A DNA stretch of 64,000 nt from contig OZ025865.1 of NCBI GenBank assembly GCA_964019425.1, positions 1-64,000 on the forward strand. The letters are read 5' to 3'. The notes below the pieces were generated by a model. The model saw nothing but the letters and a program-made list of their open reading frames with translations, was not told the DNA's origin and ran no database searches. Both the position numbers and the translations under genes were made by a program. The stretch's first letter is position 1. Each line of letters starts with the position of its first letter. Below, in pieces: positions 1-63,348 of the stretch. This DNA is from Flectonema sp. DT1601. Taxonomy: Eukaryota > Euglenozoa > Diplonemea > Diplonemida > Diplonemidae.

Positions 1-2945
1 CCGCAGCCGTTGCTAATCCTAAGGTTTGTCGGAGATACCCAGGGTTCCATCGAGTCAGGCTGCACAAGGCACTGGCTTTCACGCTGGCTGTCAATGCCAG
101 AAAGGAGGCCAGCCCAGTAGCTTTGGGTTGAGGCGAGTCTGTTGGTACTAGGTATCCAAGTCATGGCTTTATACCTGTAGTACGCTATCTTGGTTTGCTT
201 TTCAATCTGACGTTTAAAAGGAAGCATGTCCGCTTCCCACAGTAGAAGTTCTCTCGGTGTGCACCTGCTGCATCCAGTAACCAGCCTGGCAACCTTCCTC
301 AGTTCGAAATCAATACTATCAACGCTGTTGCTTATCAACCAACCAAAGCTATCGAGCGCATAAGAGATTCTCGCAGTTACGTAAAGGTTCTTGACCATAT
401 TTAGCGTTTTGTAGTCAAGATCATACGGTTGAAGGCATTGAAGCAGAGATATTCCCTTTTTCAGTTCTTCATGAATCTTAGCCACCTGTTTGTGGAAAGT
501 GAGTCTGTCGTCGATGTGAACTCCGAGGTATTTCACTGAGTCCACGATTGGCAACAGAAATGCGGTTTTAAATCTGGCTTTCACCACCATCACGTTGTCT
601 TCGAGAACAATATTCCGCAACATCACGTTGTCAAGTTCGTCTTGCGTTTTGATCAGAGTTCCATCAACCTCGAGAATAGTTTCGCCGCTTTGAAGCATGG
701 GTCTAGAAGAGTTTAAGTTGATACTCTTTTCAATGTCACTATAGTCCATTTTGATAACGTTTTCCACAACAGATCTGGAAAATAGTAATTCGCGATTGCA
801 GGTGTCGTTGAGAATCATATCCTTCGTACGGACTTTCATCTTAAGAGCACAGGTCTTTGAGACCGACAGGGCCATGTCGTTGTCAGAACACCATTGATCC
901 ACTTTATCAAGTATTATTTGAGCATTTGAAAGAGCTTCTTCCATGTTATGTCCAGATACTACACATGCTGTATCATCCGCATACAGAGCAGACGTCGTTG
1001 TTTCTTTCTCCAGTTCCAAAATCTTGCAGAGGTCATCAACGTAGATAAGATAGAGAAGAGGACCCAGGATCGATCCCTGTGGAACCCCCTTAGCCAGAGT
1101 ACGGAATTCGCTAAAGTAACCATTCGCTTCAACTCTAACCTTCCTGTTTGTAAGAAAGTCTGTGATCCATCTGATAATAACATTCGGAACACCCATCTTT
1201 ACCAATTTTAATAAAAGTATCTTATGGTTGATCCTGTCAAACGCAGCAGTAAAATCAAACGATAAGAACACCGATCTCTTTCTCTTCATGTGCATCCTTA
1301 CGACGGCATCTACCAAAACGGTGATCTGTTCGCAGGTATTTCTCCCCCTTCTGAAACCAGCCTGTAGTGGGCTGAGTGACGAATGTTTAGTGAGCCAGTG
1401 CATGAGTCGGTCATACACGAGCCTCTCCGCAAGTTTCCCAACAACCGATGTGAGCGTAATGGGTCTGAAACTCTTCAGTTCATTCCGAGGTTTTCCAGCC
1501 TTGAACATAGGCTTGATTAAACCTTGTTTCCACTGGTACGGTACTTTTGAAGTCTTCCAGGAAGTGTTAATAATTCTCAAGAGGTATTCCACTGTTGCCG
1601 GAGTGAAGTTTTTGATCATCTCATTGTGAACTCCATCAGGTCCTGCAGCCTTGCGGGTCTTCAGGTTCTTAATCGCTGCTTCAATTTCAGCCATTGTGAA
1701 ATCACAGCAAATATCCATTTCATTATCACCATCTGAGAGTGCGGGGGCCTCTAGCGATAATATTTCCGATTTCGAGACAAACAGGTCCAAGAATGCTGAT
1801 GGGAGATCGCAGTCGGAGATGTTGTTGACACTGATATCTTTACCAGCATCTTGCTGCAGTTCTTTGATCTTCTTAAACGCAAAGGCAAAGTTGTTACCCT
1901 TGTCAAGTTGATCACGTAGGTGGACACCCTTCGATTTGGCAGAATCAGGAGTTGACGTCTTCCACTTTCGTCTCCGTTTCCCTTTGAAAAGGACACGTCG
2001 ACGAATGAATTTAGCCGCCACTTCATGCAGTATGTTGTTAAAGAGCTTGGCATTCGCAGTTGCATCGTTGGAGAGTTTCGATTTTCTAATTCTCTTATCG
2101 AGCATATTTCCAAAGCAGTTCCAGTCCGTAGACTTGAAGTCCCACACTACGCGTTTCTTAGAACCTATCGTGGCCCGTGTAAGTTGACACATGGGATCCA
2201 GTACGGTGTAGAGAGGTCGGTGATCAGATCCATGTTTATTATCTTCTCTAATTACAGAGAATTCTTCCAGAATCATCGAGTTTTGAAAAAATACTACGTC
2301 CGGCGAGGTACCGCCCCCCGGGATATTAGGAAAAGGCCTTGTGATTGACCCCATTTTGTTGGCTACCAGTAGATCATTGTGTGCTGCCCATTCATGTAGA
2401 GTAGAACCTGCTGGCGTCGATTTTGATGACCACACCGGATGATGGGCATTAAAGTCACCCGCGACGATTGCTTTCGTTGAGACCGGAAGATCTGACTTTC
2501 TGATCTTGCATCCCGGGGGAGCATAAATATTTAAAATGTCAATCTTTCCACCTATGTTGACCTTTACAACTTCAACATCATTTAAGTGAGGCGGAAGTAC
2601 GATATCAGAACGCTGCTGAGTGTGGCATTTCTTCACCATAATAATAACCCCACCACCCCGTGTTGCCCTATCATTCCGATAGGTAAAATAATCCGTGTGT
2701 GAGACTACATCCCTTGTCCAAGTTTCTTGCAGGCACAGTATGTCAGGCGCATAGGCATTAAGCAGCTTGTGTATGTAGGCACCTTTGTTCCCCATTGATC
2801 GACAGTTCCAACTTAGTAGTGATATGAGGGAGTCGTCAGGGCCAGGGTTGCGTTCGACGTCGCCTGCTTTAAGCAGCAATTCACGAGCCGTATTCTTTTC
2901 CACGAGAGAGTTAGTTGGGCTGAGATCATCTTCATCGTCATCTAG
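1..2945 (-). CDS. LINE-A ORF2: 2A peptide, AP endonuclease, reverse transcriptase (partial)
   Basis: Encodes the enzyme that nicks the target and copies the element RNA by target-primed reverse transcription. I checked every codon from 2945 to 3 and found no stop. The order is a 27-residue acidic linker, the 2A peptide, then an exonuclease-endonuclease-phosphatase domain beginning LSWNCRSMGNKG (about 2815) with LQETW, a GDFNAHHPVW motif (about 2450) and SDHRPL. The RT follows with FRPITLTSV, motif A LSFDFTAAFDRI (about 1227-1265), GVPQGSILGPLLYLIYVDD (about 1035-1090) and the catalytic YADD (972-983), then a thumb-like region to the window edge. There is no in-frame Met between the ORF1 stop and the 2A motif, so independent initiation upstream of the endonuclease is unlikely. 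The C-terminus is cut off by the window. Confidence 0.93.
2838..2879 (-). other. 2A ribosome-skipping peptide of LINE-A
   Basis: Codons spell LLLKAGDVERNPGP, matching the 2A consensus D-(V/I)-E-x-N-P-G-P, with the leucine-rich stretch just upstream that efficient 2As carry. It lies 27 codons after the ORF1 stop and directly before the endonuclease domain, in the ORF2 frame. In known 2As the ribosome releases the chain after the glycine and resumes at the final proline. Activity here is inferred from the perfect match. Confidence 0.92.
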
Positions 2946-2948
2946 TCA
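2943..2948 (-). promoter_or_regulatory. Candidate stop-codon readthrough site, UGA CUA
   Basis: ORF1 ends AAC UGA CUA GAU and the same frame is open from CUA through the 2A and ORF2. UGA followed by CUA is the best known leaky-termination context, used by alphaviruses and by some animal readthrough genes. No frameshift would be needed to fuse ORF1 to ORF2. Readthrough itself is inference. Confidence 0.7.
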
Positions 2949-4577
2949 GTTGAGATCAAAGTCCGAGTCGTTACTTTCCATTTCTTCGTCACAGTTATTA
3001 TCACCATCTTGTTTAACGTTAGATTCGGTGGGCGGTGCTGGTGCTGGTGCTGGCGCTGGTGTTGGTACTGATGCTGGTGCTGGTGTCTGCTGCTGAGTTG
3101 GCTGCTGTGGTTGAGGAGTTGTCTTCGGTCTCTTCAGGGTTCCCGTCAATTTTTGAGCCGCGTCGCCTGGGTTGTAGGTTGGGCCTAAGGGCTTCCTGTC
3201 GCTTCGTTTGACTTCTTTGTTTATCACAAGATACTCATTTGTACCAATGCTTACGAAGTTGGGCGGTTGAGATTTTGCAATTGCAACTATTGTAGTACTC
3301 CCTCCTTTATGGAAAGATGCAACAACTGTGTGCTCCCAGTTGTGTGAGGACTTAAGGAAGTCGCTGATCTGCGCTATTGAAAACTTGCGAATCGCCATCG
3401 AGTTTATAATAAACCTGTCGCCCGAGGGCAGTGCAGGCTTGAATGCCGCGTTGAGCTTAATGCTGACTCTGATATTACAATCAGGGTGGACTCGGAGTCC
3501 AAAACAGCTTTTGAACCTGCACATGTAGAACTTCCCTTTAAATTCATCAAGTACAGAAGTCTTGGACTTCGCTGCCAGGAAGCCAAGGTCGTTTTTAAAT
3601 TGCAAAGTCGGCCAAACGTCACTTCCGTTCGACCATCCCGGATTTCTGATAAAGACATTCTTGGGTTTGTCGGTTTCAGGTTCGCTGTTGTTGTAATCCA
3701 GAACCTCGTGTACTTGGTTTCTGGGGATTCTGATCGCCATCGAGGTGTGGGATTCGTTCTTCCTGTAGCTAAAGGGGTCCGCCTTTATCTTCAATTTTTT
3801 AAGAATATCGGTCGATTTGACTGTCAATTCTTTCTCGGTTGATTTTCCCCAGTCTTGGATGAATAGAACTGGGTCGGGTGTTGGTATCTGGTGGTTAGCT
3901 GATGCTTTTGAGAAGTCATCACCATAGACGTGAGTGTAAAATACTCGCCTGATCTCGCAGACGCCTCCTTTTTTAATTACCGGTATTGCTACTGGAACCG
4001 TGCCCTTTGTGAGCGGGACTTTACTGATAGCAGCCCATCGGCCGCTCTTCTTCGTTTGGCGAAGCGCTTCAAAGTCTTGTTTTGAACGGACCAGAACTAG
4101 ACCAGAGGTAAGGTTGTTTGTAGCATTAGCTGCTACGTCGTAACTGATGGTGGCCACAGAGCCTGCCCACGCACCGTGAATGTGCCACTCCGGGTAGCTT
4201 GCTTTTGCTTTTCCCTTCGTGGTTTGATTGTCCTTCATTGCTGTTGGTATCGGCAATGAGAACGGCTTCGTACTCGTTTGTTGATTAGAAGCTGTAGATG
4301 CTCCTGTAGTTGGTTGGTTGACACCTGCGGTTGAGGGTGTCGTCGCTTCTGCTGCCGTCGTCGCGGTCGCTTCCGTCCCACCACCCCCATCGAGTGTGTC
4401 CGGTCTCCTCCTCTTCATCTCCGGGTTCCCATCTTCTGACCCAGCCACAAATTGAACGATCTCCATTAGGAGATTTGCCACCCTTCTTTCCTTCTCTTGC
4501 TCCGGGATCCCGTCTTCTCCCACCATCTTCAGGAGGTTCATAGCCTCCGACACCAACCTCTTCAGGTTGTCTCTCAT
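2946..4577 (-). CDS. LINE-A ORF1 protein
   Basis: A 543-residue protein from the ATG at 4575-4577 (MRDNLKRLVSEAMN...); the frame is open a little further upstream but without an ATG. The N-terminal 60 residues look helical. They are followed by a KRRR cluster, a Thr/Ala/Gln-rich linker, a roughly 330-residue globular region rich in aromatic and basic residues (SYPEWHIHGAWAG onward) and a Pro/Ala/Gln-rich acidic tail ending DSDFDLN. By position this is the RNA-binding ORF1 protein of the element. I see no CCHC knuckles, so the nucleic-acid-binding fold is not identified. It ends at the UGA that separates it from ORF2 in the same frame. Confidence 0.85.
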   Translation of the reverse strand: MRDNLKRLVSEAMNLLKMVGEDGIPEQEKERRVANLLMEIVQFVAGSEDGNPEMKRRRPDTLDGGGGTEATATTAAEATTPSTAGVNQPTTGASTASNQQTSTKPFSLPIPTAMKDNQTTKGKAKASYPEWHIHGAWAGSVATISYDVAANATNNLTSGLVLVRSKQDFEALRQTKKSGRWAAISKVPLTKGTVPVAIPVIKKGGVCEIRRVFYTHVYGDDFSKASANHQIPTPDPVLFIQDWGKSTEKELTVKSTDILKKLKIKADPFSYRKNESHTSMAIRIPRNQVHEVLDYNNSEPETDKPKNVFIRNPGWSNGSDVWPTLQFKNDLGFLAAKSKTSVLDEFKGKFYMCRFKSCFGLRVHPDCNIRVSIKLNAAFKPALPSGDRFIINSMAIRKFSIAQISDFLKSSHNWEHTVVASFHKGGSTTIVAIAKSQPPNFVSIGTNEYLVINKEVKRSDRKPLGPTYNPGDAAQKLTGTLKRPKTTPQPQQPTQQQTPAPASVPTPAPAPAPAPPTESNVKQDGDNNCDEEMESNDSDFDLN

Positions 4578-5982
4578 AATTGCTTTTTCCTGTGAAACGT
4601 ACCCACTGATTCTTACCAATATTAGGTTGCGAAATCAATAAAGTACAGAAGTACAGAAGTAGCCACATAATCGACGTTTCTTTTATTTCTATAAGTCAAT
4701 GTCTCTATTAGTTTTCTGACGATATCAAATATTTCTATCCCTTTATCAGGACCCCTGCCTTCATCACAAGAAAACTTATATTTAAATTAAGTCCCACCCA
4801 CCCTTCCCCCGCCGGTGTCCCGTCGAATCGAAACGGCCCGGTACAACCCCTACGCAGAAGTAATCTGCACCACAGTGTAGATTCTTCTAAGTGATCTCAG
4901 ACTTGTTAACTGCATGTTCATTCAATTAAGTATACTTCTCTTTCCCAGGTGCATACAGTATAGGAAGGCTAATTACCATCAAAGCTGCAGACCACCTTAC
5001 TATATGGGTGGGCAATACCACGGTATGCGGAGTTTTTAGGAAAAAGATGTCTGTTAAGCCATTCATTTAAAGAACAAGTGTTTGGTCAAGGCCATTGATT
5101 TTCTTTTTCTTTTGAAATGTTCCTACACCCTTGGATGGGTTAGTACGAAGTACAATCCTGCTGACCTTCAAGGGAGACTGTTTCTCATTCGACCAAGGGG
5201 AAGGTTAAACAAGCGTTGGGGGACTTTTTCAACATGCGCAGGGGTGGTGGAGCTGAGTCCAACGAAAACGGACTTCAGTTACCCCGCCGCAGCGAGCCAC
5301 CTTGAACCAGGGTGTTCTTGCAATCGCGCGTTCTAGTGTAATCGCTTGTTATTGGTGCGTGTGTAGTTTTTAAGTTTTATTATTTCGACAGGTGCAAAGC
5401 ACGGAAGGACAATTACCCACTTCTGTTGCTGTTTCTGTTTCGGCTGTTGTAGCTGAATCGGCTGCTGATTGTGCAGCTTCTCGTTCTTCGTTCTTCCAAA
5501 TTTTATTATCTTGGCCATAAGGCCGCTAATTTTTTTCACTGCCGACCTCTCGCAGAAATGGTCGGCGGCGAACAACTCCAGAAGCTTCGCTCATTAAATC
5601 ACTAAATGAATTAGTCATCTTGCTGTTTTCCTGATGGGTGGAAACCCGCACAAAATTGAAGTCTCACCCGGAAGGTTCGAAATCAATAAAGTACAGTAAT
5701 TATCTTGCATCCTTTGGGCACCTGTTTGGAAGAAAGGAAACATGAGAAACAAATCACTCGGTGATATCAATAAACTAAACAATGGTCAACTTGGTGGACT
5801 ACCCATGCGAGTAGGTCACCGCGTTGGGGTTGTGGTGGGTCCGCCATGGATGGGCTGGACGCCGCTGCCGGTCCCAGTTCTGTTCGTTGGGTTGCCGGCT
5901 CCACCACCGAAAAATTCGATGCTTGGTGAAACGGTGCTTTGGGATGCTGCAAATTACTGAAATATATTTAACAGAAACTCAT
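4578..5982. other. LINE-A 5' region and unassigned sequence
   Basis: No convincing gene. A 19-bp sequence, CGAAATCAATAAAGTACAG, occurs at 4630-4648 and again at 5678-5696, bracketing about 1.03 kb of more G+C-rich DNA. This could be a target-site duplication around an insertion or two copies of a LINE promoter piece; I cannot decide. The short plus-strand frames near 5.1 and 5.75 kb show no family features. Confidence 0.4.
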
Positions 5983-13345: not shown

Positions 13346-15189
13346 CTACAAACAGTTGCGGCATCCAAGAGCTTCGGCTACCGGGTTACGAGAGCTAAGG
13401 CACCGCCACTTTGATGGAAGGGTTCGTTTAATACCAAATATAGCAAAGTAGTCGCTGCTTGATTGTGTTTCAGGGAGGTCTACTTTGCCCCCATTTGGGA
13501 CATCACTTCGGAAAGCTGTCATCGGATAAGCACGTTCACCAGTTTCAATAAGTGGCGCACACGAACCCGCATCCCAGCCTGCGAGTGGAAGGCTAGAAGG
13601 AAATCCCAAGCTGTGTGGCTGCGAGCACGGAGGACAGTGGTATACCACAACTAAGAATGTACATCCGTAAACACTTTCACATCCTACCTGAAATATTTCA
13701 TTCTGCGCAACTGGAAATTTCGGGAAGAAAGCATTCATCTGCTGATAGATTTCAGGAAGCTGCACCAGACTGAGACCCTGACTAGCTACTGAAGAACCAC
13801 TGACTGGAGTGATTGGAACCTGAACTCCATTCTGCTTCACTCCATAGAAGCTAATACAACATGTTGATGGAATGCATGGATAAGTCGTACACGGTGTACT
13901 CTCTGGAACCATTGTGCCTCTCGAAGAACACGTTGAACCTAAAGGCAACGTCCCACAGGTGGCAACAAAATTCTCACTCGGCATTGCCTGCGATGCTTGC
14001 ATGGAAAAGAAACTGACACCATATCCTGCACTCTTATAGAATACGAATGGTCTGAAGCAGCATCCGAGTTCGTGAAAGATTCCGTGAGTGTGACCATGTG
14101 GAGAGAACTCCTGTAATGTGGTTCCTGTTGGGTTTTGCTTTAGTTGTCAATATCAATAAATAGTCACTCCCTTATAACAAAAATAAAAACAATACCTTTG
14201 TAACCACTACCAGAACCATTATCTTCCATCCAGGTGACAACAAAACCCTCCCATCCATTAGTACCAATGCCTGCTGTGGAGTGATGGAGTTGTTTGTTTT
14301 CCAGAGCAGTGTTATTCGGGTGGTGGAGACGTTGAATGTCTGTGGTCGCAAGACCCTTATTATCATAAGTTCTTACGTAGAGTTTGTTTTTGTATTGCCA
14401 AGTCACAGCAAATCCTCCAGTTCCTGAGAGAGTCCTGACGTTTGGGAATCGAGACTGGTCACCGGCAATTATTTCATCGTAGGTAGACGTTTGACTGACC
14501 TGAAACGATGTTTTAATATTGCCAAAAGACTTCATAGTAACAACTACTGATCCCCTGATTTCATAAGCAATAACCCATCCTCCATCAGTAAGAGCAGCTA
14601 TTTTTGGATGGTTTCCGAAACTTGAGATTTCTTCAGCGCGAGTAGACCTAATTCCGTTAGCTTCATAGATCGACAGTCGTAAGTTGTTATAAGTTAACGT
14701 TCTCCAAGTTAACGCAAATCTACCTTCTGTAAGCATTGTTACATGTGGGTGACACTGTCCTAAACCAGTCGGATCCACGAATTCTATCTCATCACTTAAT
14801 AGCATGCCATTAAAATCAAAGATAGCTGTGCGGATTTGTTTGATAAAAGTGGAATCCATATACACAATTACAAATCCTCCTTCCCATGCTGATATTAAAG
14901 GCCAGGAGTAGAGAGACTCATCGTTGTGATCTAAAGACCACATTGACAGCATATGAGGAAGATATATTTCAAAATCATCAACAGCATCTCCTTCACAATT
15001 ATACCTTCTAATAAAATATCTTGTCTGTGTAACCAAATCAGTCCTGTACTCAACAGTTCCACAAGTTGGAAGAGGTGACGAGCCTATCATAATATGATCA
15101 CCAACAGGAGTCGGTTGTTGACGGCTAAACGGAGGATATAAGGCAGTGACTAACATCGCAGTGCTAAGAGTGAGAATAACACGCAGCAT
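13346..15189 (-). CDS. Secreted repeat protein with Cys-rich C-terminus (two exons)
   Basis: Two exons, 15189-14196 and 14124-13346, joined by a 71-nt intron (AAAG|GTATTG ... CAACAG|GAACC) give 590 residues. The start at 15189 yields a clean signal peptide (MLRVILTLSTAMLVTAL); an upstream in-frame ATG at 15255 would spoil it. The first exon holds about five degenerate beta repeats of the type GGFVIVYMDS, GRFALTWRTL, GGWVIAYEIRG, GGFAVTWQYKN and GFVVTWMEDNGSGSGYKG. This resembles the 'GGFVVTW..DGSG' repeats of large bacterial RTX-type secreted proteins. The second exon is Cys-rich (CTTYPCIPSTCC, CESVYGC, CPPCSQPHS) and ends CRNCL. It probably acts outside the cell. No function is assigned; bacterial ancestry of the repeats is only a possibility. 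Confidence 0.75.
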
Positions 15190-15464
15190 TATTTTCTTTC
15201 TTTTAAAACTGTTACAAGATAAGAGAATTAAGTAGCGAAAAAGATCAAAGATCATAATTATATTCGAATCCTTACCTGAGCAACCTGTGAAATAATTGAG
15301 AGTCTTCCCAACATATAAAATGACAGCTGTTATGAAAAAAACATAATGTACAAAGGTACGCTACATCTTTTATTGGTTCGCATGAAAAACGAATTGAATT
15401 ATTTTATTTCTTTGACTCGCCGTTGCAAAAAGAAAACAAATAAAATAAAAACTATTCTTTTTAA

Positions 15465-49678: not shown

Positions 49679-49888
49679 CCCTTTAAGCCCTGAAGGCCAC
49701 TATAGTGGCCTTTCGCGTTTTTTTTTTTTTTTGACAAAGGGGAAAAATGTAACTTGTGAGTACAAGGGTGGAGCCAGAGCTGCCAAAAAACGACAAATTT
49801 TATGTGGGATCGTGCTGCAAAAATCACCAGCTTTTTCTGAGAAAAAGTTCTTTTTTTTTTTTCTGCACTGGGAAAAGTCTTAGCCAGG

Positions 49889-52667
49889 TTGCCCATGACT
49901 ATCCTATCTTTTCAGCCAAAAATTAATATCCCTAAAACCATGTCTAGCGAAAATGATTCAGTAGGGTCATCTATCCCAGATTTGGTCCCCGAGCCTCGCT
50001 CGAGCGATGACGAGAGTACAATAGAGCAAAGTATTTCCACTCCGAAATGGAGCAAGAAAATCACTAAGATAAATCGACACACGTTTCGGAGGTCCCTGCG
50101 GAACATGTCAGACCTGAAGAAGATGAAGGAACTGCAGGTATTTGAACTTGTGTTCACCCCAACGGTGATGAAGATGATTGTGCACTACAGCAACAACTAC
50201 AATCAGGCACTCAATCTTAACGTAGCTGAACTCAAACTCTTTTTAGGACTCCATCTCATGAGTCTTTGTGATAAACCAAATATCTCAGATTACTGGCACG
50301 GTCCATCAGACCCAGCGTACACACCCCACTTTGCTTCCTGCATGAGTCGAGATCGGTTCCACCAAATTCGAGCCAATTTAAATTTTTACACTGCTACCAA
50401 TCCTGAACCAACTGACAAGCTCTACAAAATCCGCAGCTTATTGGACACAATAGTTCCCAAATGGTCCGAGATTAATAACCTAGACAAAGAGTTATCTCTT
50501 GACGAGAGTATGATTCCCACCAAAGGTAAGCTCCCAGCAGGGATGAAAGTCTTTGAACCCAGAAAGAGAGTTAGGTTTGGTATTAAGGTTTACGTCTTGG
50601 CGGAGTCGAAATCTGGCTACGTGCAGGAAATACTGCTGCATCAGGGGAATAAGAACACAGCATCAGACTATGTTACAAAGTTGACCAAGCCGTATGAGAA
50701 CCAAGGCAGATGGATAGCCTTTGATAATTTCTATTCGAGTTATCAACTCTTCGTGGACATGTACGATCGTGGTTTCCACTGTGTCGGCACAGTAAGGAGA
50801 AACAGGAGAGGTGTACCTGAAGTCACGAAGCGAAAGTCAACCCCCGGGCCTGGTAGACAAAAAAGGGAGGAGGTGCAGGGACGGATGGAGAAGTTCTCTG
50901 CCTCGTACCTGGTTTCATTTGTTTGGTGAAACTTAATTTTAGAAGCGATGTGCTGGTTTGCATATCATGCTTCGTCGGCTGCTTCGCCCTCCTCGTCAAC
51001 GTCCTTATAATTGGCCCGTGATGCTTTTTGTTGCAGCATTTCGTGGCAGTCCGTTGTTCCGGATCCGGATTCCGCTTGCAGTCGTTGCAGGGAGCCATCT
51101 CGTGGTGACGGCATCGGTGGTGGCTGTTTCTGCAACATTGCTCAGATCCTCTGCCAATCACTATGCAGACTGCACATGGAGTAAGCTTGTGCTTGCTGCA
51201 AAAGTCCCATATCGGTATTTGTCCATCTTCATCCCCCAGAGTGTGATGGTTGTGGCAGTGGAAGGATTCCTTTTCCTTCTGTAGTTGTGACCGAGTCAGA
51301 TGCGTTTGCTGTTCAGACTCGGCGTCCTTCTTCTGCTGCTGGCTTTCCAGTTGCTGTCGTCGTTGGCGGTATTGCTTCTCCAATTCCTTCTGTTGGTGCT
51401 GATGTTGCTCTTTGAGTTGAGCCTGTAGGTTTTGCTCCTTCTGGAGACTTTCCGTTTCCTTCAGCTGATGGTGGCTTTGCAGTTGCTGCTGTTGTTGGTG
51501 GTACTGACTTTGCAGTTCCTGTTGTTGGTGTTGGCGTTGCTGTTCCAACTGTTTTTCTTGTCCTTGAAGGTTGGTTTCCTTCTGGTGGTGGTGCTGTTCC
51601 ATGGCCATTCTCTGTTGCCCCAGCCGCTGCTTCTCTTCCTCGATTTCGTCTAGCGACTCGAGTTTTTCCTTCTCGAGTTTCGCCAGCCGGCGTTCTTCCT
51701 TGTCCGTGCGGTCCTCGTCCCTGTCGCGAGTGTCGTCCCGCGGGCGTCGGTCTCTGCTGTCCTTCCTTGTTCCACCATTGCCATTCAAGGCATGGGCCAG
51801 CCTGTTTCTTTCTTTGTTGGATAAGAAACATCCAGTGTTCGGATGCTCTTGATGTGGTGGTTGGTGTTGATGTTGTTCGCATCCCTTGCGTTTGACACCG
51901 TCTTGTCGACCCCTATCGAAGTCGTCCGGGACCGCCGCGAGGAGGCAGGTGTCGTGATCCCCTTCAGCACATTGCCTCTCAAGAAAGGTTATGTGACAGC
52001 CACACGTTGGACAAAAGTAAAGAATATCCAGCAAAAGGTCAAAATTGACTTACCGGTACAGATCCATCAGTACAACAAACTAATGGGTGGTGTTGACCTC
52101 GTAGACGGTATCAGGGGGAAGGCAAAAAGAACTCTGATGACAAAACGCTGGACCCTGAAAGTCTTTCACTACTTGTTAGAGATTTCTATTTTCAACGTTT
52201 TCACCCTCCAAAAGAAGTCTGGAAAAGACGTCGGGACATATACTCAGTTCAAGAGTAGGCTGTGTTCTCAACTTATTGATAGCAGAACACCCCAAACTCG
52301 CACAGAAGGTCACTACCCACGCAGGTCCGATACTTCTAGGGACTGTGCCTACTGCAGTTCACGAATTTGTTCTTCAAAAAGAGTGAGGTCATCGATTTAC
52401 TGTTCAAAATGTGGGGTTTTCTTATGCATTGATCCCTGCTTCGAACAATATCACGAGAATATTGACAAGTTTTCAGCACCTGTTTGCAACAACCATACCT
52501 TTGCTACAGACAGTCATACCCCACCAAAAAAAAAACGTGAAACGGAAGCACTCTACTCCTACAAAATCGCCAAAATCAAAGCGAACCCAGGGGTCTTAAG
52601 CAACAGTGTATTTTTAGGTTGTTGTTGTTGCATTTTCCCAATTTCTTTTCGCCCCCTTGCGGGCTGA
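49889..52667 (+). pseudogene. piggyBac transposase, split by LINE-B insertion
   Basis: DDD-type cut-and-paste transposase specific for TTAA. The first part (49889-50910) runs MPMTILSFQPKINIPKTMSS through LSLDESMIPTKGKLPAGMKV (first catalytic Asp) and GRWIAFDNFYSSYQLF (second). The LINE-B insertion follows, with loss of about 63 bp of transposase sequence at the site, judged against copy 1. The second part (51961-52667) has VQIHQYNKLMGGVDLVDGIR (third Asp) and a C-terminal Cys-rich zinc module (DCAYCSSRIC, YCSKCGVFLCIDPC). Outside the interruption both parts are open, so the copy was probably functional until the LINE landed. Confidence 0.9.
50911..51960 (-). mobile_element. LINE-B short derivative (internal deletion, about 1.05 kb)
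   Basis: Starts at 51960 with GGATCACGACACCTGCCTCC, exactly the 5' end of the full LINE-B at 63622. It carries the first 0.7 kb of ORF1 (Q-rich coiled coil) and then jumps near 51270 to 3'-terminal LINE-B sequence, via about 60 bp not present in the full copy. One frame stays open across the whole element (roughly 340 codons), fusing the ORF1 coiled coil to a Cys/His-rich module: CHNHHTLGDEDGQIPIWDFC, then KHKLTPCAVC and RCRHHEMAPCNDC. The last 125 bp of the full copy's 3' end are missing. No target duplication; instead target sequence is lost. Confidence 0.82.
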
Positions 52668-57130: not shown

Positions 57131-60100
57131 TTGCTGCAAAACCATCAGCCGTCTCTCCTCCAGTTGTTGATAGTCGTCCCTGTGGAGCCTGATCCGTGCG
57201 AACATTCGTTGTAGGTCTCCAGTGAGACCCGCCGGCAGTTCCACATTGTCGGGCTTGATGCCGAGTAGCCTCAGGCAATTGGGCCAATCGCATCGAACTT
57301 GTAGCATCACTTGCGGATATTCCTGTCGGATTGTGTCATAAGCTCTGCAATCCCAGTTCACGTGCTCGAGGGTCTCCGTCCTCTCTACGTCGTCAACCTC
57401 CTCGCAGTGCGCGCAGTTCTTGTTTCCCGCCTTCATCGAGCCAGTGTACACGTTGTCCAGGAGGCAGTGCTTCACTACTCCGCGCAGGTAGGGGTCGCCC
57501 TTTCCTTCCTTCAGGACCTTCAGGGTCTCTTTCCGGTCGATGCCCGCTTCAATACCTCTCAGGTTTACCCGTCTCGTTTCCGCAATTGTTTTGTTCCAGG
57601 TGAAACGCCTGCACGCCTCTCTGACATCGTGCCGCCAGCGCCCCGCATCCAGCCTTCCGTGTTCGGTCGTCCCTCCCGGACCTTCGAAGACCGAGAAAGT
57701 TGACCATTCCCATCCAAGTTCCTTCAGAGTACTCAGGGCGAGGCCGACTGGTCCTCTCGTCGCTTCAGTGTGCTCTTGCAGGTGTTCCCATACCCTGCGT
57801 ATCCTCTCAGTTAGCTTCGGTAGCATTCTGGTGAGTGCAAGGAGTCTGTTGTACCTAATGTACGTCGCGGGATCCACACAATGTCCCTTGCAGAGTAGCG
57901 TTAGGCCCATGGTGTGCGACATCTTAGTTCTTTTCCCTCCAAGTTTGCGGAAAATCCCCGTTGCCATTGCTCTTCTCAGCAGTCCGAGTCGCGTCGCATC
58001 GGGATCGTACAGTGCCGTTCCGAAGAGCGCCTTGGGCATGACACTAGCTGCAGCTATCTGTTCCTTCGCTTGATATCTGAGCGGAAGTAACCGGATTCGC
58101 CTCGCTCTATCGAGCACTTCTTCCGTGATCCTCCCCATCTGCTTGGTGGTTCCTTTCATACTGAGGTGGCATCCCACGATATCGACACTGTCATCGAAGT
58201 CTAGTGTTGTGTCCCCCATTGTGATGTTGGTCTGGCCCTGGTCTCTGTTCGAGAACCACTTGCACTTCTGAGGCGCGAGTTCTTGTCCGGTCAGGGTGCA
58301 GAACTCCGCAACGACTTCTACGCCTTCTTGTAGCTTCGTTCGTGATCCAAACAACGTCAGGTCGTCCGCATACGATCCGGGCGTCACATCTGCTTCCCTC
58401 TCGATTGCTTTGCTGAGTATCGAGCTCAGCGCATTGAAGAGCACCACGCTGAGCGGACATCCTTGCAGTATTCCGTTGGTGGTGGCAAATTCTTCTCCGA
58501 CGCCACTCGGGAACTTGAATCTCCTTCTGAGTCGCCGGTAGACATCCGTCACAGTTCTCAGGATCTTATCACTTAGGCCCAATTCCTTCACCAATTTCAG
58601 GAGGATGTCAGGTCGAAACACTTCCTGAAGTCCGTGGTCACTCCAGCAATCTCTTCTCCGTAGAGAGTTGCGTGTTCCACGTCTAGTGCTATCTTCCAGC
58701 TGAGGTCGAGCGTAGATCTCCCCTTCCGGTAGCCGTACTGCCCGTCGTGAGCCCACTTCTCTTGCCACTCCATTACATCCTTTTCCATACGTATACAGCC
58801 CCATAGCCTGTAAAGTGCGGATGTCACCGTAATGGGTCTCTGCTCCAGTGGTTTCGTCCCTGCCCCTTTGGGTATGGCCGACACCAGTGCTGTGAGAAGT
58901 GCTTCCGGCCAGTGTGTTCTCTCCACCATGTTGTAGAATTCCGCTATCATCTGAATCATGTCCTCCGGTAGCAACTTGAGCTCCGATATCCTGAAGCCGT
59001 CTACCCCAGCTGCTTTGCGCGAGCTAGTCCTTCTGAGGGCTTTTGCAACGTCCCCCCCGGTGATATCTTCGCATCGCATCGGGTGTTCCTCGATGTAGCT
59101 GCTGTATCGTTCTTCGAACTTCATCCAGTCTGGTTCTGGGTCTGACAAGTACTTTTTGAGTATGGGGTCCCATGCTGCGTGCATGGCCTCATCCAGTTGG
59201 CCGTCCAGCTTCCATCTGCCTTTTCCATCAGAACAGTCTTCGATTGCTCGACGTTCCTGATCCACTGGAAAACCTTCGTGCGGTCGTCGTTCCAATTGTC
59301 GACAACATTCCGTTTCCACATGCGGATGCGTTCGGTTCGGAGCTTCTTGCTTTCTATCGCTTGCTCCTGTCTCGCTTGTTGTAGCAGCATCCGAAGCTCC
59401 TCCGTCTGTGGTATTTCGGTTCCCGTCGTCGGATCGAGTTTTCGTAATTTTTTCCAGAGTTTCATCACTTCGTGGGACGGCACCGTCGGACCATCGTATT
59501 GCCTTGTGATTTTCGTCACTTCCTCCAGGACGCGGATCTTCTGCAGTCTTCTCCGCGTTTCCCTGCACGTCGCTCCTCTCCCGTCTTGTTTCGCCGCGTT
59601 CGTCCACATCACAGGCTCACGCTTCTTCCCGCGTCTTGTACTTGGCTGGGTTACTTATCTCCAGCTTTCCCGTCAGAAGGTATCTTTCGATGATCTCTCC
59701 AAGCGCCTCCAGCATCTTGTCAGGATCTTCCGTCGCTACAGCTCGCGTCCAGTGGAGTTGCCTTTCGGCCTTCCCCTCACTCGGGTCCGTTGTCTCGGAG
59801 GTATCCAACTGTTTCGGTACTATCAGCCTAGGAGCCTTCTCGTTGTAGCGTGAGATGTTGAGCTTTCTAATGATGACCGGCTTGTGTGTCGGGATCAGCT
59901 CACTCTTATGCACATGAATCGTTGTGTCATTCGAGATTGCTGTCGCCGCCCCGCGGTTCATCAGAATAGCATCGATTCTACGAAGTCCTTTTCCCGCTTC
60001 GCTTGTCGGTGTCATGTTTCCCATCGAGACGGCGGCATCTATCCAGAGTCCGTGTGCGAAAGCAGACAGAAGCGCCGGCGATTCCGTCGTTTCGACGTTG

Positions 60101-60654
60101 AAGTCCCCCGCTATCAATACGGGAACATCACCCAGAGCTGCTGCTTCCACGAGCATCTCCGCAATCAACTCTTCCGTGTAGACCGCCGAACGTACGTCTC
60201 CGTAGAACGAGAAAACGTGCAGTACCTTGCCATTTCCGTACGACACTCCCGCGTGTACGAATCGTCCTGTGTTGTCGAGCCGATCGTGTTTTATCCTTCT
60301 CACCGGTGTACCAGTGCGCGTCAAGATGGCCACGCCTCCCGCCGCCATCCACGTCTTTTGCCCATCGGTTAGTAATTTGCACTCTAATCCGAAAGTCGCT
60401 TCCCATCCTCTCTCACCGAGCTGTTTTTTCATCTGGCGTTGCTGTGGGCCCGTCAGAGAAGTTTCCTGTAGAGCTATCAGATCTAGGTTCAGATCTGTGA
60501 TGGCATCTATTTTTCCTTCCAGTGTGGTGACATTGATTGTTTCCACGGTGAGCCCATCGATTCGTGGTCTCGGTCCGGGGTTCCTCTCAACGTCGCCAGC
60601 TTGTAGCAGGAGACGTCTCCGTGTCTCCGCCCAGTTCCTTCCGTCCTCCGCCGG
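57080..60654 (-). pseudogene. LINE-B ORF2: 2A, AP endonuclease, RT, zinc finger (frame-disrupted)
   Basis: Begins in frame right after the ORF1 UGA. After the 2A, the endonuclease has LDLIALQETSLTG, AGDFNVETTESP and ELIPTHKPVIIRK, and ends at a TGA at 59617-59619. The linker continues in a shifted frame (LWKKLRKLDPTTGTEIPQTE). It returns to the first frame near 59210 with SRKAAGVDGFRISELKLLP and the RT motif A TTDFRKCFD. It shifts again near 58610 to carry GILQGCPLSVVLFNALSS, the catalytic SYADDLTLFG and KCKWFS. A finger CAHCEEVDDVERTETLEHVN with WDC (C-x2-C-x12-H-x4-C) follows, as in many APE-type LINEs. Three frame changes make this copy unlikely to give an active enzyme. Confidence 0.85.
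60571..60612 (-). other. 2A ribosome-skipping peptide of LINE-B
   Basis: LLLQAGDVERNPGP, a perfect 2A core, 19 codons after the ORF1 UGA and in the same frame, with no Met between. It differs from the LINE-A version only at one residue (Q for K) although the codons and the surrounding proteins differ. Confidence 0.92.
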
Positions 60655-63348
60655 TCAATTCCGTTCCATGAACGCCATCAGTAGACGTTCCAGTCGGTCC
60701 AATCTCTCGTCCACTGAGCTGTTCTCTTTCTTTTTTGTCGACTTGGGCTCCTTTTTCGCTGTTGTCGTTGCGGTGGCTGCCTTCGTAGGTGCCGTCGTAG
60801 TTGGTGTTGGGTTGCTGGCTTCTAACCATAGGCGTTGTCCCTTCTTCTTCCCATGAAACTCGATAAACTCCAATCGAGTGTACCACTTTCCTCCCGTTCC
60901 CTCCGTCGGGTCACGTCTTTTCTCCGGTTTCGTCGGTGTCGCATTCGGGCGTTTGGTCTCCTTCCGTTTCGGGTCGACTTCCACCTTCTGTTTCCCAGCC
61001 TCCACCATGCACAGGACGCCATCCACCGTGATGGTTTCCTGCGTTCTCACCGGACCGCGGACGACCATCCATCGCATGCCGTTCCGTACGCCTTTCTTCG
61101 TCTTCCTCACCTCCCAGCCTTCCTTCGTGATCAGCCACTTGATCGCTTCGTCGGTGGTTGTGCCGATCGGGATCCCCGTGATCTTTGTTTCCGGTAGCTT
61201 AGCCGGCAGGTGCAGTTTCTCCCTCGCCGCCGTTTCCTGCCAGCTGGTCACTCGAAGCCCGAGTCCGTGTTCGTTTACCACGAGTCCCAGCCCCCCATCG
61301 ACTTCTACAGCCTTGTCCCGAGTGATTCCGAGCGTCTCGTCCTTCGGTAGCCAAATGACCGCCGCCTTCACTGCTCGTTCCTCTCTCGGATCCTTTTCCT
61401 TGGTGAAGACGCCGTCCTTCCCCGATTCTCGGAGGAAGTTCTTCACTTCGGCTACCTTCACCCTGAGCATCACGGTCACGCTCTGGTCTCCGATCCGCGG
61501 GTTGTACGTATCGACATACCCCGGCATCTTCCTCAACTCTTCCGTTGCCCTGATCGGGGAGCGCTTCACTTCCGACCATCTCTTCTCTCCGGACCATTTT
61601 TTGTCCACTCGGACAACCATCTCCCTCGTGCTTTCCGTCCGCACGACGTCTGTTCCGGATGGTACAACCACTCTTCCCAGTGTTGTCATCCAGAGCTGCT
61701 TGAGAATTCTCTTCTCGCCGTCGCTCGTCGTCTCCTTAAGTACTACCTGTACTTTCTGCGCCGTGTCTGATGGTGGTTCCAGGGTTACTAGGGATAACGT
61801 TTCCCAGGCTCCCGGAGGTGTTCCCGACATCCTCTTCCTTGCCTCCTCTCTGGTGGTGAGGTGTACTCCCTTTGCACCGGCGTCGTACTGCTCCTTCGTA
61901 ATTGCCATTCCCTCTGGCCAATACTCCGGTGCCAGCGAGAGGTTATCCACTCTGGATCGCTCCTTGCGTGCTGCGTTCTCCCAGCTCTTCTGAGTCTGCG
62001 CCAGTCTCCCGGCCTCTCGGACCATCTGCTCTTGGATGGCCGATCGTCCGGCTACCTGCCCTTCATTGATTTCCTTCATCAGCTTCTTGCGTGAGGCGTC
62101 TAGCTCCCTCGTACCGTCTTGGGGCAGCTTCACCGGTGGCGTTTGCTTCACTTCCGTGTTTGCTTCCTGATCAGGGGTGGTGCCCATCTGATGTTCCTCT
62201 TCCTCTTCTCTCAGCGAGTTGAGCCCTCTGATCTGGACCCGTTCCGCTTCGAGTTCTAGCAAGAAACGTTCTTGCATCTCTCTCGCTTCCCGTCCCGCCG
62301 TTTCCTGCTGCCTCTTCGCCTCAGCATGTTGGGCCTTGAGTTCTTCTCTCAATCCGTCCAGTTGCTGTTGGAGAGTTCGGAGCATCTCGCGTAGTTCGCT
62401 CTTCTCCTCTCTCTCGCGCTTCAGTTCCTGCTGTAGTCCTTCGTAGTGGGAAGGCTGCTGCTGCTGGGCGTAGGTGTCGTACGTTGCATACGGTTGATGC
62501 TGCATGTAGTGTACGGGTTGCTGTTGCGGTTGTCGATGTTGTTGCAGTTGCTGTTGTAGTTGTTGTTGTTCCAGTTCCAGTTGTTGATGCTGTTGTTGTT
62601 GTTGTTGCCGTTGTTGTTGTAGTTCCAGTTGCTGATGTTGCGATTGCTGTTGCTGCTGCTCTAGTTGTTGCTGCTGTTGGTGTAGTTGCTGCTGTCCTCG
62701 GTTCACCTCTTCTTCACGCCGTTGAATCTCGTCTTCCTTCTGTTGGAGTTTTTGTTGTTGTTGGACTTTTTCTTGTCCAATCTGCTCCTTGAGCTTCTCT
62801 TCCTTCAGTTGGAGCCCCTGCTTCTGTTTGCCTATCTCGGCGTTCAGTTGTTGGTGGAGGTGCTCCTTCTCGTTCTTTAGCTGCTGATCCAGCTGGAGGT
62901 GGAGCCGTTCCTTCTCCGTCTGGAAGGATTCCTTTTCCTTCTGTAGTTGTGACCGAGTCAGATGCGTTTGCTGTTCAGACTCGGCGTCCTTCTTCTGCTG
63001 CTGGCTTTCCAGTTGCTGTTGTCGTTGGCGGTATTGCTTCTCCAATTCCTTCTGTTGGTGCTGATGTTGCTCTTTGAGTTGAGCCTGTAGGTTTTGCTCC
63101 TTCTGGAGACTTTCCGTTTCCTTCAGCTGATGGTGGCTTTGCAGTTGCTGCTGTTGTTGGTGGTACTGACTTTGCAGTTCTTGTTGCTGGTGTTGGCGTT
63201 GCTGTTCCAACTGTTTTTCTTGTCCTTGAAAGTTGGTTTCCTTCTGGTGGTGGTGCTGTTCCATGGCTGTTTTCTGCTGCTCTAGCCGTTGCCTCTCTTC
63301 CTCTATCTCGTCGAGCGAGTCGAGTTTCTCTTTCTCGAGCTTCGCCAT
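60655..63348 (-). CDS. LINE-B ORF1: Q-rich coiled-coil protein
   Basis: 897 residues from the first ATG (63348, MAKLEKEKLDSLDEIEEERQ). The frame is open without an ATG back to the element's 5' end at 63622, and that part is conserved in the short copy at protein level (HDTCLLAAVPDDFDRGRQDG), so a non-AUG start is possible. About residues 1-390 form a Gln/Glu/His-rich coiled coil. The C-terminal 450 residues hold basic, globular-looking regions (EYWPEGMAITKEQYD, WSGEKRWSEVKRSP) and end in a short heptad, SSVDERLDRLERLLMAFMER. It stops at UGA CCG. Presumed RNA-binding/assembly protein of the element; no known RNA-binding motif is recognised. Confidence 0.82.
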   Translation of the reverse strand: MAKLEKEKLDSLDEIEEERQRLEQQKTAMEQHHHQKETNFQGQEKQLEQQRQHQQQELQSQYHQQQQQLQSHHQLKETESLQKEQNLQAQLKEQHQHQQKELEKQYRQRQQQLESQQQKKDAESEQQTHLTRSQLQKEKESFQTEKERLHLQLDQQLKNEKEHLHQQLNAEIGKQKQGLQLKEEKLKEQIGQEKVQQQQKLQQKEDEIQRREEEVNRGQQQLHQQQQQLEQQQQQSQHQQLELQQQRQQQQQQHQQLELEQQQLQQQLQQHRQPQQQPVHYMQHQPYATYDTYAQQQQPSHYEGLQQELKREREEKSELREMLRTLQQQLDGLREELKAQHAEAKRQQETAGREAREMQERFLLELEAERVQIRGLNSLREEEEEHQMGTTPDQEANTEVKQTPPVKLPQDGTRELDASRKKLMKEINEGQVAGRSAIQEQMVREAGRLAQTQKSWENAARKERSRVDNLSLAPEYWPEGMAITKEQYDAGAKGVHLTTREEARKRMSGTPPGAWETLSLVTLEPPSDTAQKVQVVLKETTSDGEKRILKQLWMTTLGRVVVPSGTDVVRTESTREMVVRVDKKWSGEKRWSEVKRSPIRATEELRKMPGYVDTYNPRIGDQSVTVMLRVKVAEVKNFLRESGKDGVFTKEKDPREERAVKAAVIWLPKDETLGITRDKAVEVDGGLGLVVNEHGLGLRVTSWQETAAREKLHLPAKLPETKITGIPIGTTTDEAIKWLITKEGWEVRKTKKGVRNGMRWMVVRGPVRTQETITVDGVLCMVEAGKQKVEVDPKRKETKRPNATPTKPEKRRDPTEGTGGKWYTRLEFIEFHGKKKGQRLWLEASNPTPTTTAPTKAATATTTAKKEPKSTKKKENSSVDERLDRLERLLMAFMERN

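Follow-up and report, generated by a model that had tools for sequence, protein, structure and literature searches.

The window analysed here is the whole stretch of 64 000 nucleotides at the start of contig OZ025865.1 of the diplonemid Flectonema sp. DT1601. It carries a long interspersed nuclear element (LINE), called LINE-A, in which two open reading frames (ORFs) lie in a single frame and are separated by one UGA stop codon and a short linker that ends in a 2A motif. The same layout is conserved in seven families of elements in this genome, the linker is under protein-level constraint in most of the comparisons, and LINE-A has no suitable AUG for ORF2. On these comparative grounds, we consider it highly probable that LINE-A is expressed by readthrough plus skipping: a leaky UGA-C would set the output of ORF2 and the 2A would free the ORF2 protein. 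The features of the element, all on the minus strand, are the following.

2946..4577, minus: LINE-A ORF1, 543 amino acids, with its AUG at 4577-4575 and ending in GAT CTC AAC TGA.
2946..2948, minus: putative leaky UGA stop of ORF1 (UGA 2948-2946), in the context AAC UGA CUA G.
2945-2943, minus: CUA codon directly after the UGA.
2838..2945, minus: open linker of 36 codons, from CUA to the final Pro of the 2A, with no in-frame AUG and with codon-level constraint.
2927..2941, minus: three out-of-frame AUGs, at offsets of 4, 10 and 16 nt after the UGA.
2838..2864, minus: 2A core GDVERNPGP, whose final Pro codon (2840-2838) is the 36th codon after the stop.
2793..2795, minus: first in-frame AUG past the UGA (Met51), beyond the near-invariant endonuclease residue Asn47.
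1..2840, minus: ORF2 from the Pro of the 2A, running off the window edge.
2220..2816, minus: EEP (APE-type) endonuclease domain PF03372 (Pfam), residues 44-242 of the frame.
825..1487, minus: reverse transcriptase domain PF00078 (Pfam), residues 487-707 of the frame.

The earlier note on this DNA had described an ORF1 ending in UGA, then CUA and the same frame open for 981 codons to the window edge, with no in-frame AUG before the 2A core. These coordinates were confirmed on the minus strand; the first in-frame AUG begins 150 nt past the UGA, and the window edge is also the end of the contig (G000:C86:1). LINE-A is classed as an APE-type non-long terminal repeat (non-LTR) retrotransposon, PF03372 lying N-terminal to PF00078 in one protein and both domains scoring above the cut-off. 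The open frame contains the motif D[V/I]ExNPGP of 2A/StopGo elements, as it is given in PMC4981915, and the predicted skip site lies between the last Gly and the Pro of GDVERNPGP. No Pfam family matched ORF1, and a search of solved structures with the endonuclease gave no match. The predicted fold of ORF1 was too poor to be used (mean predicted local distance difference test score, 37.8).

The proposed mechanism operates on one mRNA carrying ORF1, the leaky UGA-C, the short linker, the 2A and ORF2 in a single frame. Most ribosomes would stop at the UGA and release the ORF1 protein, and a minority would insert an amino acid there and go on into the linker. At the 2A, the ribosome would leave the Gly-Pro bond unformed. 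ORF1 would thereby be released with extra residues at its C-terminus, about 36 of them in LINE-A, and the ORF2 protein would then start with Pro. The UGA-C context would thus set the ORF1:ORF2 ratio, with the 2A substituting for the protease of gag-stop-pol systems. For the readthrough step we rely on comparative evidence; the skipping step is suggested by the motif and by known 2A biology, as described in PMC4981915, PMC5972666 and PMC12846837. The earlier proposal that a fraction of ribosomes reads the UGA and that the 2A releases ORF2 is supported by the conserved frame and UGA-C, by constraint on the linker in seven of 11 comparisons and by the positions of the AUGs in LINE-A.

A search of the genome (89.5 Mb) with the LINE-A junction gave 39 long matches, plus 13 short ones to a simple repeat. 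The 38 further copies were taken as 6 kb pieces and read beside the window copy. With the window copy included, 38 of the 39 could be anchored on the 2A; the remaining one, L017, has NLGP in place of NPGP, yet TGA CTA is kept. All 38 anchored copies have AAC TGA CTA, followed in the same frame by 36 codons without an in-frame ATG. When the junctions were sought with the stop codon left as NNN and as many as three mismatches tolerated, the stop was TGA in 39 of 39, and the control gave none. The ORF1 and ORF2 frames are both open, save for the single UGA, in 23 of the 38 copies (ORF1 frame of at least 562 codons, bases before the AUG included; ORF2 frame open to the end of the piece, 945-1152 codons). 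In the remaining 15, at least one of the two frames is interrupted or truncated. One copy could be read to the end of ORF2: L009, which has a late frameshift, ends in ...NLRLWK followed by TAA.

Two further patterns are seen among these copies. Subfamily A3 (L016 and 18 further copies) is mostly 73-77% identical to the window copy in ORF1 (68% for one piece of L023) and 97% identical at the N-terminus of ORF2; in L016 the synonymous difference is 0.34 in the linker and drops to 0.05 over the 200 codons that follow. Judging from these differences, a module swap near the 2A is likely. Eleven of the 39 copies are found no more than 50 kb from a contig end (4.1 would be expected if they were uniformly distributed), and a subtelomeric bias is possible.

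The 2A pattern occurs at 137 sites in the genome and at none in the control; a D-I-E variant of the 2A was found at no place in the genome. We examined 116 of these sites, plus L017. All 116 have an in-frame stop upstream of the 2A. In 113 of them the 2A frame reads AAN TGA C there, and the distance from the stop to the final Pro is 25, 26, 27, 28, 36 or 56 codons. These 113 sites fall into seven families.

Family A: AAC TGA CTA, 36 codons, 38 copies.
Family G: AAG TGA CTT, 26 codons, 19 copies.
Family B: AAT TGA CCG, 28 codons, 14 copies.
Family C: AAC TGA CTT, 56 codons, 14 copies, plus one with CTC.
Family F: AAA TGA CGG, 28 codons, 14 copies, plus one of 27 codons.
Family D: AAG TGA CAT, 26 codons, six copies.
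Family H: AAC TGA CTA, 25 codons, six copies.

The three exceptions are decayed or shifted copies. UGA-C is still visible in another frame in L057, which has a shift within the 2A, and in L111, which has an indel in the linker; in L056, ORF1 is in another frame and the stop position reads Trp. A frameshift or a different frame between ORF1 and the 2A in other copies had been set as the observation that would speak against the device; the frame and the UGA-C are instead kept in 113 of 116 sites. The layout of the junction is not due to chance (39 of 39 TGA and 113 of 116 AAN TGA C). The ORF1 proteins form two families, one comprising A, C and H (A and H are 40% identical over 73 amino acids) and the other B, D, F and G (F and G are 33% identical over 119 amino acids). 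Comparison of the two families, which covered the last 111-149 amino acids for C, D, F, G and H, revealed no similarity, so that at least two LINE lineages show the device.

Constraint on the linker was assessed by Nei-Gojobori counts in the readthrough frame for 11 pairs from families A, B, C, D, F and G; the p values come from Fisher tests on rounded counts and, as sites are treated as independent, they are guides. Protein-coding constraint past the stop is significant in seven of the 11 pairs: A1-A2 (9.0 synonymous and 2.0 nonsynonymous changes, p=3e-5), A1-A3 (p=0.003), G-G2 (five and none, p=0.001), D-G (13 and one, p=3e-8), B-G (p=1e-7), B-F (p=2e-6) and F-G (p=8e-16, with synonymous sites saturated). 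The same test applied to the other two frames of these seven pairs shows no synonymous excess (p from 0.5 to 1). The part of the linker located 5' of the last 20 codons is also constrained in A1-A2 (16 codons, six synonymous and one nonsynonymous change, p=1e-4), F-G (0.002), A1-A3 (0.009), B-G (0.018), D-G (0.019) and G-G2 (0.04).

The context of the stop codon is consistent with leakiness. Among the 113 sites, the C after the UGA is invariant, and the next two bases vary (CUA, CUU, CUC, CCG, CGG and CAU). The device is thus UGA-C; CUA, which the earlier note named, is not conserved as a whole. Families A and H have UGA CUA G, which is listed as a high-readthrough (high-TR) motif in PMC12233894; according to the same source, C after UGA promotes the binding of near-cognate tRNA. 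UGA CU is described as leaky in fungi and in human cells (PMC4207609). For comparison, 14 ORFs of the window taken as host end in TAA (seven), TGA (five) and TAG (two), with one of the five TGA followed by C. This baseline is small and not all of the 14 are proven genes; some of them (two M16 pieces, UBA and XPC-binding pieces) may be exons, in which case the listed stop would be intronic. An unassigned frame of 398 codons elsewhere in the window (14164-15360, minus strand) also ends in TGA CTA.

Several points weigh against expression by readthrough and skipping. There is an in-frame AUG in the linker in eight of the 113 copies: it lies 10 codons before the Pro in L053, L055, L105 and L109 (four of the six copies of family D) and in L081 (family F), and it is also present in L092, L093 and L123 of family C. 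Adenine at -1 and at -2 is described as enhancing readthrough in yeast (PMC12233894); in the 113 sites, positions -3 and -2 are always A and -1 varies, so only the -2 adenine fits. Linker constraint is not significant for A2-A3 (p=0.25) or for three pairs within family C, which differ at few positions (8-10 differences per pair; p=0.35, 0.79 and 0.92). Upstream of the last 20 codons there is no constraint for B-F (p=0.27) and none of significance for A2-A3 (0.34) or C (0.34-0.93). A stimulatory RNA structure 3' of the stop is common in readthrough and not required; no consistent folding excess was found in seven stretches after the stop (z of +1.65, +0.69, +1.05, -0.08, +1.91, -1.20 and -1.68); an eighth fold, from L059, fell inside ORF1. 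The seven families may descend from one ancestral junction, and they would then not be seven independent events. Finally, readthrough and skipping are inferred, as are their efficiencies and the identity of the inserted amino acid.

The best-placed alternative, which we nevertheless regard as unlikely, is termination-reinitiation: ORF1 would end at the UGA, the ribosomes would stay and restart downstream for ORF2, and the 2A would be a relic. Reinitiation is known or proposed in other LINEs, SART1 and L1, according to PMC5972666, and the eight linkers with an in-frame AUG could serve it. In LINE-A, however, the three out-of-frame AUGs come first (L011 has two of the three) and the first in-frame AUG lies past Asn47, a residue nearly invariant in 14 aligned ORF2-like proteins. 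As the match to PF03372 begins at residue 44, a start at Met51 would lose this residue. Reinitiation could also do without a shared frame, without UGA-C and without constraint on the first codons past the stop. The positions of the AUGs therefore make AUG reinitiation unlikely in LINE-A, in line with the earlier claim that the ORF1:ORF2 ratio would be set without it. This argument covers LINE-A; for families C, D, F, G and H, the pieces read stop short of the first in-frame AUG past the 2A.

A start of ORF2 at a non-AUG codon inside the linker is very improbable. The near-cognate codons CTG, ACG and GTG are present there, but the codons just past the UGA are constrained in several pairs (B-F, A2-A3 and C excepted), a pattern that a start further down the linker fails to explain. 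With a late start in the linker, moreover, the 2A would be some 10-15 residues long, which is probably not enough for activity. Less probable still is an alternative mRNA from which splicing, trans-splicing or editing removes the UGA: T-rich runs upstream of several ORFs of the window suggest that RNA processing signals may be common, but such a route would not need the AAN UGA C that is kept at 113 of 116 sites.

Reassignment of UGA, or its reading as selenocysteine, has the least chance of all. The junction stop is UGA in all seven families, with no UAA or UAG among the 113, which is a point in its favour. Against it, 23 of the 38 LINE-A copies have a single UGA per element, and 60 of 65 HSP70 matches are free of internal stops; the other five, with one TGA each, all match profile positions 431-599 and lie in one tandem cluster on C13. 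Of 18 proteasome matches, 17 lack an internal stop and one contains a TAA. TAA also closes two HSP70 frames. No selenocysteine insertion sequence (SECIS) or other credible Rfam match was found in a LINE-A copy and its 3' region. Nothing in these sequences suggests that UGA is a sense codon in this genome. The HSP70 genes include a tandem array of eleven, about 2.85 kb apart (G000:C33:524102-554386).

Among 7995 scored candidates, three homologues of LINE-A ORF1 were found at E 0.001 (P0159-P0161). The nearest proteins marked as coming from another source are ORFs of EukProt transcriptomes: P0003 for ORF2 (52%) and P0161 for ORF1. The latter is 50% identical over 88% of LINE-A ORF1 and also has Asn as its C-terminal residue. 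Both are named TRINITY_DN1157_c0_g1, isoforms i5 and i6, so a shared transcript is likely and not proven, because Trinity names can recur across assemblies. The ENA protein P0002 contains the family C linker and 2A and probably comes from this same genome; P0005 and P0006 are likewise ENA proteins. For the Na/H exchanger, close relatives were found only among EukProt transcriptome proteins (54% and 47%). A search of viral contigs gave no relatives, and one of prokaryote genome contigs gave two distant reverse transcriptase matches.

The window contains a second LINE, LINE-B, with the same UGA-C, linker and 2A layout and an ORF1 without similarity to that of LINE-A.

60655..60657, minus: UGA stop of LINE-B ORF1 (60657-60655), in the context AAU UGA CCG G.
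60571..60654, minus: LINE-B linker of 28 codons and 2A (PAEDGRNWAETRRRLLLQAGDVERNPGP).
59617..60654, minus: 2A and endonuclease frame of the window copy, closed after 345 codons by a stop at 59619-59617.

LINE-B apparently lies inside an LRR_5 gene. A piggyBac-type DDE_Tnp_1_7 transposase gene (49841-52667, plus strand) is interrupted by a sequence resembling a portion of the LINE-B ORF1 frame (50823-52049, minus strand). Upstream of LINE-A ORF1, the short repeat cgaaatcaataaagtacag occurs twice (near 4631 and 5678 of the window) and is perhaps part of the 5' region.

2A-bearing LINE clades include L1Tc/ingi in trypanosomes and Rex1, CR1 and L2 in animals. Odon is said to have found in 2013 that 2A LINE elements are mostly single-ORF; here, in contrast, ORF1 persists as a frame of its own, linked to ORF2 by a putative leaky UGA. 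L1Tc/ingi and other 2A non-LTR elements resemble LINE-A in being APE-type, with the 2A in frame with the endonuclease-reverse transcriptase protein (PMC4981915). The L1Tc/ingi clade is described as having a 5' hepatitis delta virus (HDV)-like ribozyme in the Pr77 region (PMC4035085). An HDV-like ribozyme was sought with Rfam in window positions 1-5500, and no match was found up to E 1, the 5' end of LINE-A not being delimited; Rfam searches of the window, the LINE-A region and one LINE-A copy with its 3' region gave nothing credible.

Gammaretroviruses use a UAG with a stimulatory pseudoknot, plus a protease. They too have an in-frame stop between gag and pol and make GagPol by readthrough (PMC5009743); here there are UGA-C and a 2A, and no RNA structure was found. 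The ilarvirus coat protein readthrough (CP-RT) and cellular UGA CUA genes are similar in having UGA CUA, UGA CGG or UGA CNN, no conserved in-frame AUG and a coding signature after the stop, and CP-RT is inferred by the same comparative argument (PMC11166343). In those cases a protein is extended, whereas here a whole polymerase would be expressed and then separated. SART1 and L1 are also LINEs that control the translation of ORF2 from a dicistronic RNA (PMC5972666); they do so by AUG reinitiation, for which LINE-A has no suitable AUG. The earlier note knew of no LINE that unites the two devices, and among the matches listed from the open-licence literature, mostly titles and the beginnings of abstracts, there is likewise no LINE with readthrough from ORF1 to ORF2 and none with readthrough and a 2A. 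The novelty would lie in the combination, a LINE joining two recoding devices that are already known.

It has long been asked how LINEs make little ORF2 protein when their RNA is dicistronic, and few answers, reinitiation among them, have been worked out. If the proposed mechanism is correct, it would add another: the ratio would be fixed by leaky termination, the products would be separated by StopGo, and two recoding events would be linked on one mRNA. The many UGA-C contexts and 2A variants of this one genome would then form a natural library. We lean, by a small degree, towards the broader view that 2A LINEs of this protist lineage use UGA-C with a 2A as their default means of expression, that this device was retained or arose in two or more lineages of LINEs with dissimilar ORF1s, and that it is a protease-free analogue of gag-stop-pol in which the stop context alone sets the ORF1:ORF2 ratio. 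In the same view, 'single-ORF' 2A LINEs described from other organisms may have an overlooked ORF1 upstream, ending in a leaky stop, which suggests that the regions upstream of known 2A LINEs should be rechecked for in-frame ORF1s.

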